Shown: positions 2,872 through 13,033 of the stretch, in pieces
How the letters are laid out: each line of letters opens with the position of its first letter
Numbering within the stretch: the first letter of the stretch is position 1
The notes under the pieces: generated by a model
What the model saw: the letters and a program-made list of their open reading frames with translations, nothing else
Told to the model about the DNA's origin: nothing
Databases searched by the model: none
DNA from: a virus
DNA: 20,045 nucleotides
IMG/VR virus record: IMGVR_UViG_3300013101_000134
Coordinates: 1-20,045 of that record
Strand: one strand, 5' to 3'
Position numbers and translations under genes: made by a program

Positions 2872-3333
2872 ATGGCACAAATACAAAATCCGAGAAAGAA
2901 ATTTAATTTCAGCATCCAGATAGTACCACAACCTATCAATCCATTTCTCGCTCAGAAAGTAGTCATACCAGAGGTAGCCTTAGGTATGGTTAAGCATGGT
3001 GATACAAACCATGACATCAAAACTGCTGGAAGAGTAGAATATGGTGATGTAGAAATAGAAAAAATCAGTACAACCTCTGGAGCAGATAATTACTTCTTCG
3101 ATTGGTTAGTATCATGTCAGGATGCCGTAATAGGCGGAGGGCTTTTACCTAACCAATATAAAAGGATAATAACTATCACAGAGTTAGCTGAAGACGGTAC
3201 ATCTATATTGAACACATGGGTTTTAACTGGGGCATGGCCTAATAAAATCAATGGTACAGAACTAAGCAGACAAGATACAGAGAACACAATGGAATCTGTT
3301 TCAATCTGCGTAGACAAGATAGAGAAATTATAA
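2872..3333 (+). CDS. Tail tube protein (gp19-like)
   Basis: A 153-residue protein directly after the sheath gene, with the size and position of the major tail tube protein. Its N-terminal part (KFNFSIQIVPQPINPFLAQK, residues 10-29) and the pattern of beta strands around a central loop fit the gp19/T4-like tube family. Subunits stack as hexameric rings that form the inner conduit for DNA. The start ATG lies in an AAAATAAA leader without a Shine-Dalgarno sequence. A strong hairpin follows about 30 bases after the stop, suggesting that sheath and tube form a high-level transcript separate from the genes beyond. Confidence comes from order as well as sequence. Confidence 0.87.
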   Translation: MAQIQNPRKKFNFSIQIVPQPINPFLAQKVVIPEVALGMVKHGDTNHDIKTAGRVEYGDVEIEKISTTSGADNYFFDWLVSCQDAVIGGGLLPNQYKRIITITELAEDGTSILNTWVLTGAWPNKINGTELSRQDTENTMESVSICVDKIEKL

Positions 3334-3424: not shown

Positions 3425-4213
3425 ATGTCAAACGAATTAACAAAAGAATTACTCTGGGGAGAAACAAAAGAATTGTTATTACCTTCAGGCAGAAAAGTAA
3501 AAATTAGAGAACAGAATGGTAATGATGATGATATCTTATCTAACGTATCTACTAGTAAAGACTTAACAAACATTGACCTATTCTTAGCTGGGGTAGTCGT
3601 AGAGGCGGACTTCACTGATAACAAGTCATTAACTATAGAAGATGTAAAAGGATTACTACTACGGGACAAATATTTTATTCTATTTGCTTCTAGGGTTCAC
3701 TCAATAGGTCCTGAAATAAAATTCAAATATGATTGGGGCGAAGACAACGGTGGTGAGTTTCCATACAAAGAAGATTTATCTAATTACTTATGGGACTACA
3801 CAGAAGAATTTCCTACTCAAGGAATCAAAGGTTATTTCAAACAAAGAATATCACCTTATCCACAAGGAGCTTATGATATTCAGAAATTCACAACGACTTC
3901 TGGGAAAGAATTAACATTTAAATGTTTAGACGGCCATGCCGAGAAAGAATTATTAGCTAAGCCAATTGGGGAACTAACTAAGAACGTAGAGCTAATAGCT
4001 AGAGACCTTAAGATAAAAGGTGAAGTTGATTATGAAAAGGTGCATAACTTTAAGTTCTTTACTAAAAGGGATATGATGGAGATTCATAATTATGTTAGTG
4101 AAGTGGATGAAACTTTTATGGGTACAACAGAAATCAACAACCCTGTTAACGGTCAATCAATAGATTACCCTATAATGCAGTCAACGGATTTTTTCTATCC
4201 ACAGGAAATTTAG
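3425..4213 (+). CDS. Tail assembly chaperone, frame-0 product (gpG/gp26-like)
   Basis: A 262-residue soluble acidic protein between the tube and tape measure genes, the classic place of the tail assembly chaperone. The N-terminal part (LPSGRKVKIREQNGNDDD, about residues 19-36) and the overall pattern resemble the T4 gp26-type baseplate/chaperone family, from memory of that family and not a search. Such proteins bind the tape measure and keep it soluble while tube polymerises around it; they are not usually in the finished virion. A T TTT TTC site lies in phase at codons 256-257, only five codons (YPQEI) before this stop, and leads into a -1 frame that stays open up to the tape measure. The ATG follows CTACAAA with no Shine-Dalgarno box. 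Confidence 0.8.
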   Translation: MSNELTKELLWGETKELLLPSGRKVKIREQNGNDDDILSNVSTSKDLTNIDLFLAGVVVEADFTDNKSLTIEDVKGLLLRDKYFILFASRVHSIGPEIKFKYDWGEDNGGEFPYKEDLSNYLWDYTEEFPTQGIKGYFKQRISPYPQGAYDIQKFTTTSGKELTFKCLDGHAEKELLAKPIGELTKNVELIARDLKIKGEVDYEKVHNFKFFTKRDMMEIHNYVSEVDETFMGTTEINNPVNGQSIDYPIMQSTDFFYPQEI

Positions 4214-4350
4214 AAGATTTATATTTCTACCTTTCCAAGTCAGGTTTCAATTTCACCTGGCGAGAGTATATGGGAGTTACAATCCAGAGAAGAAATAAGC
4301 TTGAAAAGATAGCAAACAATTACAATGAAGAAATTAATAAAAAGAAGTAA
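3425..4350 (+). CDS. Tail assembly chaperone, -1 frameshift fusion (gpGT-like)
   Basis: Reading 3425-4195, slipping back one base and continuing 4195-4350 gives a 308-residue protein: the first 257 residues of the chaperone plus a 51-residue extension. The extension begins LSTGNLEDLYFYL and ends in a basic NEEINKKK; it contains the aromatic FTWREYMG segment. The TAA at 4348-4350 abuts the tape measure ATG. In many long-tailed phages the T part of such a fusion recruits tube subunits to the tape measure. The -1 frame has no suitable ATG near its start, so it is unlikely to be an independent gene. The alternative is that the T6 run is a miscounted T7, making one continuous 308-residue ORF. Confidence 0.75.
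4189..4195 (+). promoter_or_regulatory. -1 programmed frameshift slippery heptamer
   Basis: The bases T TTT TTC match the X XXY YYZ rule. They are in phase with the chaperone frame: GAT (4187-4189), TTT, TTC. Both tRNAs can re-pair after a one-base backward slip. The frame entered is open for 51 codons and ends immediately before the tape measure start. Position between tube and tape measure genes matches the known frameshift sites of tailed phages. Confidence 0.78.
4204..4236 (+). promoter_or_regulatory. Candidate frameshift-stimulating hairpin
   Basis: GGAAA (4204-4208) pairs with TTTCC (4232-4236) and TAGAA (4211-4215) with TTCTA (4225-4229). They are separated by a 2x2 mismatch and closed by a 9-base loop. 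The base of the stem is 8 bases after the slippery site, within the spacing usual for -1 frameshift stimulators. The stem is AT-rich with three G-C pairs, so its stability is modest. A second small stem (CAGGT 4241-4245 with ACCTG 4255-4259) lies just downstream. Confidence 0.45.
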
Positions 4351-6498
4351 ATGATAAACGTATCAGGTTCTAATTTAGGTATTGGTATATCACTCATAAT
4401 GCGGGATGGCTTTAGCGGTCCTGCAATGGTTGCTGGTGCCAACATGGATAAGCTTCAAATGAAAGCCCATAGGTTGGCAACTCAACAGATGACTATGGCT
4501 AGGAATGCTAATGCTATGGGAGCTGCAATAGGTGGAGCTGCAATATATGGTTTGAGTAAATGGGTTAGTGAAGGAGCTAAGTTCAATTACACAATGAAAT
4601 ATGTATCTGCTATATCTGGTGGAGTTGGTAAAGAATTTGATAGGTTAAATAATAAGGCTGTAACATTAGGGGAATCTACAATGTTTACCGCTCACCAAAT
4701 ATCAGATGGTATGAGGTGGATGGCTCAAGCAGGTATGGATGCTAACAGTATCTACAACTCAATGGGTGCAATAGCTAACTTGGCCGGTGCCACAATGTCC
4801 AACATTGAAGGCAGGGGTGGGGCAGCTGACTGGGTTACTAACGTAGCTAAGGCATTTGATATTACCTTAAATGAAAAGAACGTAACAAAGATATCTGATG
4901 TTATCGCAGTAGCGGTGAACAAATCTAATACAAAACTTTACGAGTTTGGTGAAGCAATGAAATATGCTCAATCAACAGCGAAGGATTTAAGTATGACATT
5001 TGAAGAAACCTCTGCTGGTATAATGGTATTAGCCAATGCTGGTATTCAAGGTACGATGGCTGGTACTGCTTTAGAAAATATGATGAGGTATGTTACCAAG
5101 GCCGCTGGTACTTCTGCAACTAAAAGACAGATTCGAGCTTTAGGTATATTAGGAATGACTCAAAAGGATTTACAGGATGCTAAAGGTGACTTACTATCTT
5201 ATGGTACAATCTTAACTAAGGTTTCTAAGATAGCGGGTACAATGGGTAACGTAGATGCTCAGAATGCTTTAATTGATTTATTCGGAGTAAGGGGTAAAAG
5301 GGGAGCTTCTACTATTGCTAGGAAATTAATGGATTACTATAAATTCTTAGATGACCTTAATAATTCTGGAGGTAAGGCTAAAGGATGGATGGATGATATG
5401 ATGGGGTCAGCACAAGGTTCTATCTTACAACTAACATCTGCATGGACTTCATTTAAAATTGCTTTCTTCGAATCACTGGAACCAGTACTAGTACCTTTCA
5501 TAAAAGGTATGACTGGTATATTAAAAGTTATTAATGCAATCGCTAGAACAGGTATAGGTAAAGTACTAATGATAGCTGGTTCTGCCTTATTAATAATGAA
5601 GACAGCAGGAATGGCTTTCAGGACTGTATTATATACAGTTAAATTATTAGCCGGTGATGTAGGTATGACAGTAGTTAACTCAGCAGCAAGGGGTACTGCT
5701 GGATTAAATACAATGACCAATGCTGCTAACAGGGCTGCAGCTGCAATGGGTAATGTCAATGCAATGAGTACTAGAGGCGGTATGGGTTACTTATGGAATT
5801 TTGCTACTGGAGGTAAAAATAAGAATGTAGGTAAGGCTGGCGTAATGTACAATGCCTCTAATCGTGCTTATGACCCAGCAACTGGTAGGTTCTTAAGTAA
5901 TAAAGCAGTAGCTGCAAAACAAGCTTCTGCAGGTTTAGGTTATGGTAAAACAGGATTTAGTAGTTGGGGTAAACATGCTGGTAAAGGATTAGGCATAGGA
6001 CTACTTGGTTCAATGGCAGTAGGCATGGCTTCAGGTGCAGTAGGTACTGAATCAAATTTTGGTAAAGGATTGGGAGTAGCCTCTGATGCACTTACTTATG
6101 GTTTAACTGGTGCAAGTATAGGTACATTCTTTGGCCCGATGGGAACATTGGTTGGGGGTATTGGCGGAACAGTTGGGGGATTACTTTGGGGATTATATGA
6201 CAAGGTATATAATGTAAAAGAAGAATTAGATTCAGTTGATATGTCTGGGGCAGATGATATAACTAAAGCTGGTAAGTGGAAAAAATTACTTAGTAAAGAA
6301 ATACCAAAAGGATTAGAAGAAAGGGGTTCACATCAACAATTCAGATACCAAGGTGATGATGGAGGGTTTGGTCCTTTCTTCGATATGAATAAAACATTTA
6401 GTAGTAACATAACAATTAACTTAAATGGTGAATCTGTATATGAGGAAAAAATAGATGAACCAAATGCAGATGTTGATGTTAGCTTAGGATTAAATTAA
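4351..6498 (+). CDS. Tail tape measure protein
   Basis: A 715-residue protein starting directly after the chaperone fusion stop. Residues about 80-300 resemble the TP901-type tape measure domain (segments such as MRWMAQAGMDANSIYNSMGA and MVLANAGIQGTMAGTALENM). It is rich in Ala, Gly and Met. Hydrophobic stretches lie at about 55-70, 400-440, 545-567 and 581-617, as expected for a protein packed inside the tube and ejected towards the membrane. The length predicts a tail of roughly 105 nm at 1.5 angstrom per residue. The C-terminus (NITINLNGES) is polar and beta-like and probably contacts the baseplate hub. No lytic domain is visible. Confidence 0.9.
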   Translation: MINVSGSNLGIGISLIMRDGFSGPAMVAGANMDKLQMKAHRLATQQMTMARNANAMGAAIGGAAIYGLSKWVSEGAKFNYTMKYVSAISGGVGKEFDRLNNKAVTLGESTMFTAHQISDGMRWMAQAGMDANSIYNSMGAIANLAGATMSNIEGRGGAADWVTNVAKAFDITLNEKNVTKISDVIAVAVNKSNTKLYEFGEAMKYAQSTAKDLSMTFEETSAGIMVLANAGIQGTMAGTALENMMRYVTKAAGTSATKRQIRALGILGMTQKDLQDAKGDLLSYGTILTKVSKIAGTMGNVDAQNALIDLFGVRGKRGASTIARKLMDYYKFLDDLNNSGGKAKGWMDDMMGSAQGSILQLTSAWTSFKIAFFESLEPVLVPFIKGMTGILKVINAIARTGIGKVLMIAGSALLIMKTAGMAFRTVLYTVKLLAGDVGMTVVNSAARGTAGLNTMTNAANRAAAAMGNVNAMSTRGGMGYLWNFATGGKNKNVGKAGVMYNASNRAYDPATGRFLSNKAVAAKQASAGLGYGKTGFSSWGKHAGKGLGIGLLGSMAVGMASGAVGTESNFGKGLGVASDALTYGLTGASIGTFFGPMGTLVGGIGGTVGGLLWGLYDKVYNVKEELDSVDMSGADDITKAGKWKKLLSKEIPKGLEERGSHQQFRYQGDDGGFGPFFDMNKTFSSNITINLNGESVYEEKIDEPNADVDVSLGLN

Positions 6499-12259: not shown

Positions 12260-13033
12260 ATGGGCTGCTCTAGGATATATACTACACCAGATTTTTTTGG
12301 TGATGATTTTTTACTGGATGATTTTTATGTAGAGAATCCGGCTTTCTCCACTACAGTAGATGTAGTATTTAAAGAATACCTATTCGAAAGGTTACCTCAT
12401 TACTTCGTAAGTCAAGATACTTACAAGGATGGACAAGGGGAAGGTTTACTACAAAGATACTTATCAATCTTTGGTGATTACTTAGATGCGGCTGTAATGG
12501 CTGAGATAGAATGTTATCTAAATATTATAGATGCATCATTAACATCAAGTAATTACATAGGTATATTATCTGATGGCCTCGGTAATCCACCAGACATTTT
12601 CAACAATGAAGAAAAATACAGAAACCTATTACAATACATTGCTTCTGTATATAAGATCAAAGGTACATTAGAATCCTACGAATTATTCTTTAGCATTCTA
12701 GGATTTGATATCATACTAACTGAAGTACCATTACCTATATTAGATGACCCAGAAAAAATGTATGATGCAGAACCAGTTCTGGGAGATTATGATGATACTA
12801 ATATATATGACTCTGATGAATGCCAACCATGTTCAGAATATGATATTGCATTCATACCGGTAGACGGAAGCTTCACTGGAGTAAGTGAAACTATGTTAGC
12901 AAGGATTAACGAATCTATTAAATTCAATGAACCAGTTAACGCCAAGCTAAGATATTTAACAATGGGTATTCAAATAGAAGATACATTGGATATTACTATA
13001 GCAGAATCAGCAACAGAAAACGTAACACCATAA
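12260..13033 (+). CDS. Baseplate protein, gpI-like (Tail_P2_I type)
   Basis: A 257-residue protein immediately after the gpJ-like gene, in the gpI position. Residues about 131-150 (YKIKGTLESYELFFSILGF) match the conserved KGT...LG stretch of the P2 gpI family. These proteins pair with gpJ-type wedge subunits and link the baseplate to the fibres. The N-terminal 25 residues are unusually acidic and aromatic (FFGDDFLLDDFYVENP). A Cys-x-x-Cys pair (C188, C191, CQPC) lies in an acidic loop and could bind metal or form a disulphide. Start is one base after the upstream stop, with ATAATATG and no Shine-Dalgarno sequence. Confidence 0.82.
   Translation: MGCSRIYTTPDFFGDDFLLDDFYVENPAFSTTVDVVFKEYLFERLPHYFVSQDTYKDGQGEGLLQRYLSIFGDYLDAAVMAEIECYLNIIDASLTSSNYIGILSDGLGNPPDIFNNEEKYRNLLQYIASVYKIKGTLESYELFFSILGFDIILTEVPLPILDDPEKMYDAEPVLGDYDDTNIYDSDECQPCSEYDIAFIPVDGSFTGVSETMLARINESIKFNEPVNAKLRYLTMGIQIEDTLDITIAESATENVTP

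Follow-up and report, generated by a model that had tools for sequence, protein, structure and literature searches.

The tail assembly chaperone gene of the window (the whole 20,045-nucleotide stretch of viral DNA analysed here) is very probably expressed through a -1 programmed ribosomal frameshift near its 3' end. In the zero frame, the gene has its own ATG and encodes a short product of 262 aa (3425-4213, plus strand). It closes with GAT TTT TTC TAT CCA CAG GAA ATT TAG, where the stop codon TAG occupies 4211-4213, and the slippery heptamer T TTT TTC lies in phase at 4189-4195 of the plus strand, followed by five sense codons. Past the heptamer, the -1 frame reads CTA TCC ACA GGA ... AAG TAA and forms an extension of 51 codons plus TAA (4195-4350, plus strand; LSTGNLEDLYFYLSKSGFNFTWREYMGVTIQRRNKLEKIANNYNEEINKKK), whose TAA at 4348-4350 directly abuts the ATG of the tape measure gene at 4351. 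At this locus the -1 frame offers no start codon (ATG, GTG or TTG) ahead of the zero-frame stop, and its first ATG is found 19 codons past that stop. The predicted frameshifted product has 308 aa, with the peptide ...STDFFLSTGNLEDLY... across the junction. A preliminary description of this DNA had proposed that a -1 frameshift joins two halves of the chaperone at a T TTT TTC that is in the phase of the chaperone frame and precedes its stop by five codons, that the -1 frame stays open for 51 codons and ends against the tape measure ATG, and that the extension has no near-start ATG of its own. The sequence features are as it described them, and the proposed frameshift is now supported by 80 loci, by selection, by RNA structure and by gene order. 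We regard the frameshift as very likely real, ribosomal, in the -1 direction and of a type already known. What is new is the link to gp26 and gp51 of phage T4, not the frameshift as such; this relation and the RNA structure downstream of the heptamer are additional to the preliminary description.

The genes of this region are arranged in the order sheath, tube, chaperone and tape measure, followed by baseplate genes including gp25. The sheath gene (1300-2853) is located upstream of the gene for a T4 gp19-like tail tube protein (2872-3333, plus strand), which matches PF06841 (E 2.8e-17) and the PHROG tail tube family, and the tape measure protein (4351-6498, plus strand) matches the PHROG tape measure family (E 5.6e-50) and PF10145 (E 3.1e-30). 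These matches bear out the position between tube and tape measure that the chaperone had been given from the sequence alone. A Shine-Dalgarno (SD)-like 4-mer is absent within 20 nt upstream of 22 of the 23 window genes. This scarcity fits a Bacteroidota host, which we infer on that basis. Several contigs related to the window are 75-88 kb long.

Since TTTTTTC by itself is common in the AT-rich window (11 copies on both strands versus 6.4 expected from shuffles), the case for the frameshift rests on conservation. The heptamer at 4189 is the sole copy of TTTTTTC on the plus strand, and no other in-phase T TTT TTC exists in the 23 main ORFs; in these, the general pattern X XXY YYZ occurs in phase at 26 sites out of 6449 positions. 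In-phase T TTT TTT and T TTT TTA also occur at 12292-12313, near the start of the ORF 12260-13033. Protein and alignment scans provided a homologue set of 80 usable loci including the window, which form 50 clusters at 70% identity and have a median pairwise identity of about 35%; a scan for the DNA motif returned 61 stretches, some of them on the same contigs as the homologues. The zero-frame stop together with a -1 frame open for 40-61 codons beyond it was found in all 80 loci. In 47 of the 50 clusters, the equivalent point carries an X XXY YYZ heptamer that begins with six Ts (T TTT TTC in 44, T TTT TTA in two and T TTT TTT in one). It is this conservation that gives the heptamer its significance, as upstream in the same chaperone genes in-phase T6N was found at 6 sites among 12,414 positions. 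Conservation of T TTT TTC and of both frames in relatives, the check put forward in the preliminary description, thus came out in favour of its proposal. In KX501134 (L010:200-430), the true frame of the chaperone carries no annotation, and the hypothetical protein annotated there is a minus-strand ORF lying over it.

Three of the 50 clusters have no X XXY YYZ at the usual point, and both frames are still kept in them. The site reads T TTC TTC in L002, T TTT TAC or T TTC TAC in the cluster of L097, L107 and L113, and G TTT TTT in L122; the last of these also has T TTA AAA in phase slightly upstream, eight codons ahead of its stop, as well as a 13-bp stem downstream. Tandem slippage does not neatly account for these three clusters. 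In L002 and in the L097/L107/L113 cluster a P-site slip is possible, in which the Phe tRNA on the first codon would re-pair one base back.

We scanned the RNA of 41 cluster representatives for folding in sliding 50-nt segments from -308 to +600 relative to the heptamer. The lowest mean folding z-score (-1.50) belongs to the segment that starts at +7 from the heptamer start, and a second peak appears at +37 (mean z -1.22); the remaining segments are above -0.9. Purine-rich and pyrimidine-rich codons may give the appearance of a stem, and for this reason we used a register-free half-swap test, in which the stem halves are exchanged between homologues (20,000 permutations). The native halves fold at -10.5 kcal/mol versus -7.7 kcal/mol for the swapped ones (z -8.4, none of the 20,000 permutations as low), as compared with z-scores of -1.9 to -3.3 in control regions. 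We relied on this test because the fixed-register pairing count was not significant (0.593 versus a permutation mean of 0.584 for the 6-pair register of the consensus stem). The arms can be lineage-specific, with 13-14 bp in L076, L004 and L120 and a different sequence in the 13 bp of L122; taken one by one, only some 15-20 of the 50 clusters have a strong stem-loop. In the window, the minimum free energy (MFE) fold predicts a stem-loop at 4204-4236 of the plus strand, 8 nt after the heptamer and with the zero-frame stop inside it; its arms (4204-4208/4232-4236 and 4211-4216/4224-4229) form 5 + 6 bp with an internal loop. A possible second hairpin, with arms 4239-4245/4255-4261 (4239-4261, plus strand), appears in the same type of fold and corresponds to the family peak at +37. 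A downstream RNA stimulator is present at the level of the family, and its signal is weak for the window locus taken alone (chimera percentile 0.38; z -2.45 for +12..+72). As another candidate stimulator, we considered the purine-rich, SD-like stretch that follows the heptamer; it was rejected, given that it encodes conserved residues of the -1 frame, that it serves as the 5' arm in many of the folds and that SD-like 4-mers are scarce ahead of the window genes.

The same fusion would arise without ribosomal frameshifting if RNA polymerase slipped on the T6 run, so that some transcripts gained a U. The run is indeed kept in most loci, as such slippage would lead one to expect, but L002, L107 and L113 have at most three Ts in a run at the site and keep both frames all the same, and a stem placed about 8 nt past a heptamer in phase is what a site of ribosomal slippage looks like. 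Six Ts are, moreover, a short run for polymerase slippage, and we consider this explanation improbable.

The distribution of start codons bears on two further readings, in which the extension would be an independent small gene that starts by itself, or would be translated through reinitiation or coupling, the latter being frequent among overlapping phage genes. Yet 78 of the 80 loci have no ATG, GTG or TTG between the upstream -1 stop and the zero-frame stop, the exceptions being L101 (ATG) and L143 (TTG). In L001, only a few codons separate the upstream stop of the -1 frame from the conserved region, and none of them is a start codon. An independently started extension is accordingly a most unlikely reading of this locus.

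Downstream of the zero-frame stop, close pairs of extensions have a pN/pS of 0.27 in the -1 frame and differ by 339, 256 and 892 substitutions at the three codon positions, counted over within-cluster pairs and so not independent. To judge from this pattern, the extension is under selection at the protein level in the -1 frame. The stretch +7..+24, where both frames are coding, carries a mean information of 0.83 bits per base versus 0.35-0.47 in its flanks. Homopolymers are error-prone and the sequence is metagenomic, so that a base could have been lost from the T run of one continuous ORF in sequencing or assembly; but the same split recurs in the 80 loci and 50 clusters, from many separate records, and the zero-frame tail and the -1 frame are conserved together past the heptamer, which leaves such an error hardly credible. 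Of the findings that the preliminary description had named as speaking against its proposal, seven Ts and relatives with a single continuous ORF did not turn up. Equally far-fetched is the view that only the short product matters and that the -1 frame merely happens to be open, given a frame open at every locus and the pN/pS value above.

For the preferred reading, a -1 ribosomal frameshift, we infer slippage itself along with its rate, the product ratio and the function of each form. Most ribosomes would stay in the zero frame and produce the chaperone of 262 residues. The remaining minority, whose Phe tRNAs occupy TTT and TTC, would slip back by one base at 4189-4195, aided by the RNA structure that starts about 8 nt downstream, and would go on to produce the 308-residue form with its 51-residue C-terminal domain. 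By analogy with gpG/gpGT of phage lambda, the short form would cover the tape measure protein in many copies, and tube subunits would be brought in by the rare long form.

AlphaFold2 with 45 homologues gave a confident model of the chaperone (pLDDT 95.7). Among the structures in the PDB, the HK97 tail assembly chaperone 2ob9 matches it best, with a Foldseek probability of 0.93 and a modest E value of 0.12 over residues 1-94 only; VIA gave a Z of 5.3 for the same structure over 88 residues in the N-terminal half of the model. Matches in BFVD, which are predicted models only, are annotated as T4-like baseplate hub assembly proteins (E down to 4e-12, TM 0.67), and the chaperone model thus appears to share its overall fold with these proteins. 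A sequence-profile search of solved structures with the chaperone returned no match. The window chaperone scores 17.4 bits (E 0.0037) against PF12322 (T4_baseplate; gp26, gp51), below the Pfam gathering cut-off of 24.5, and 16 of 39 family members match PF12322 at E<0.1, the best at 1.5e-8. We therefore describe the chaperone as related to PF12322 and not as a formal member. Since hhalign gave no convincing alignment of the chaperone profile with the single T4 gp26 and gp51 sequences, the link to PF12322 is based on the matches of the other family members and on the structure matches. In the annotated phage collection, the chaperone family of the window occurs in nine records only, all of them uncultured phages.

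The G/GT tail chaperone frameshift system has been described in a review, where the tail frameshift is said to be widely conserved "except T4" (PMC5009743). T4 gp26 (208 aa) and gp51 (249 aa) both belong to PF12322 (genes 26 and 51, L192:7803-9229), and the C-terminal tail of gp51, which is in frame, resembles the extension; gp26 has no such tail. Seven phages outside the window family (L201, L210, L211, L212, L213, L214 and L215) have PF12322-like chaperones whose stop is followed by an out-of-frame extension, which is either unannotated or annotated separately. The extension lies in the +1/-2 frame in five of them, namely SP-15 (66 codons), Listeria LIS04 (72), Streptococcus GXN1 (89), LR756508 (86) and Microcystis Mel-JY01 (69). 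It lies in the -1 frame in the other two, with T TTT TTC present in both: LR756511 (51 codons), where the heptamer is located further upstream, and Agrobacterium Atu_ph07 (74 codons, entered at T TTT TTC). As candidates read from single sequences, these extensions may likewise be reached by frameshifting.

Copy numbers were compared across the same phages. Exactly one PF12322 match was found in six of the outer phages and none at threshold in Mel-JY01, and all 12 window-family records examined have one chaperone each. Two copies each are present in seven T4-like phages and Campylobacter CP220; downstream of the stops of gp26 and gp51 in these two-copy phages there is no hidden 50-residue extension, as the frames either close within 20 codons or run for more than 120 into the neighbouring gene. 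In single profile-profile comparisons, the window-family extensions matched the outer extensions with a probability of 92.8 (E 4e-7), and the gp51 C-termini matched the outer extensions with a probability of 58.9 (E 9.3e-5) and the combined extension set with a probability of 64.3 (E 6.4e-5). No column shuffle was as good as the matches of the gp51 C-termini, the effective number of shuffles being less than 200, and an earlier shuffle test of the window-family extensions against gp51 gave 2 of 400. Compared as single sequences, the extension and T4 gp51 gave no match, whereas profile against profile did.

On balance, we favour a scenario in which the chaperones of the superfamily of gp26 and gp51 were ancestrally made from one gene in a short form and a form extended through frameshifting (-1 here, +1/-2 in others), and in which the T4-like phages duplicated the gene, leaving gp26 as the short form and gp51 as the permanently extended one. 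If true, it would explain why T4 is listed without a tail frameshift, and the "hub assembly catalyst" gp51 would act as the equivalent of gpGT. One gene plus a frameshift versus two genes offers a testable account of gp51 function. We found no paper in the open literature that joins PF12322 chaperones, the extensions and the T4 exception. The analysis adds a previously unannotated frameshift for a chaperone family known, in the annotated collection, only from uncultured phages; what makes the frameshift valuable is how widely it is conserved, the structure downstream of it and a testable account of the T4 exception.

Among known systems, the frameshift of lambda gpG/gpGT was reportedly described by Xu, Hendrix and Duda in 2004. 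The locus resembles it in the placement of the gene before the tape measure and in the pairing of a short with a C-terminally extended product, and differs from it in the contractile tail, in a shift only five codons before the stop and in an extension of only about 50 aa. The lambda heptamer is G GGA AAG, unlike T TTT TTC here. The E/E+E' frameshift of P2, a phage with a contractile tail, uses T TTT TTG, and the two systems share a T-rich -1 heptamer and a position between tube and tape measure in a contractile-tail phage; to our knowledge the P2 proteins form a different chaperone family. Of the solved structures, the HK97 chaperone 2ob9 comes closest to the N-terminal half of the model, but it is from a siphovirus and the match is modest. 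T4 gp26/gp51 share a homologous core with the window chaperone via intermediates, and the C-terminus of gp51 resembles the -1 extension, whereas in T4 the two forms are encoded by two separate genes with no frameshift.
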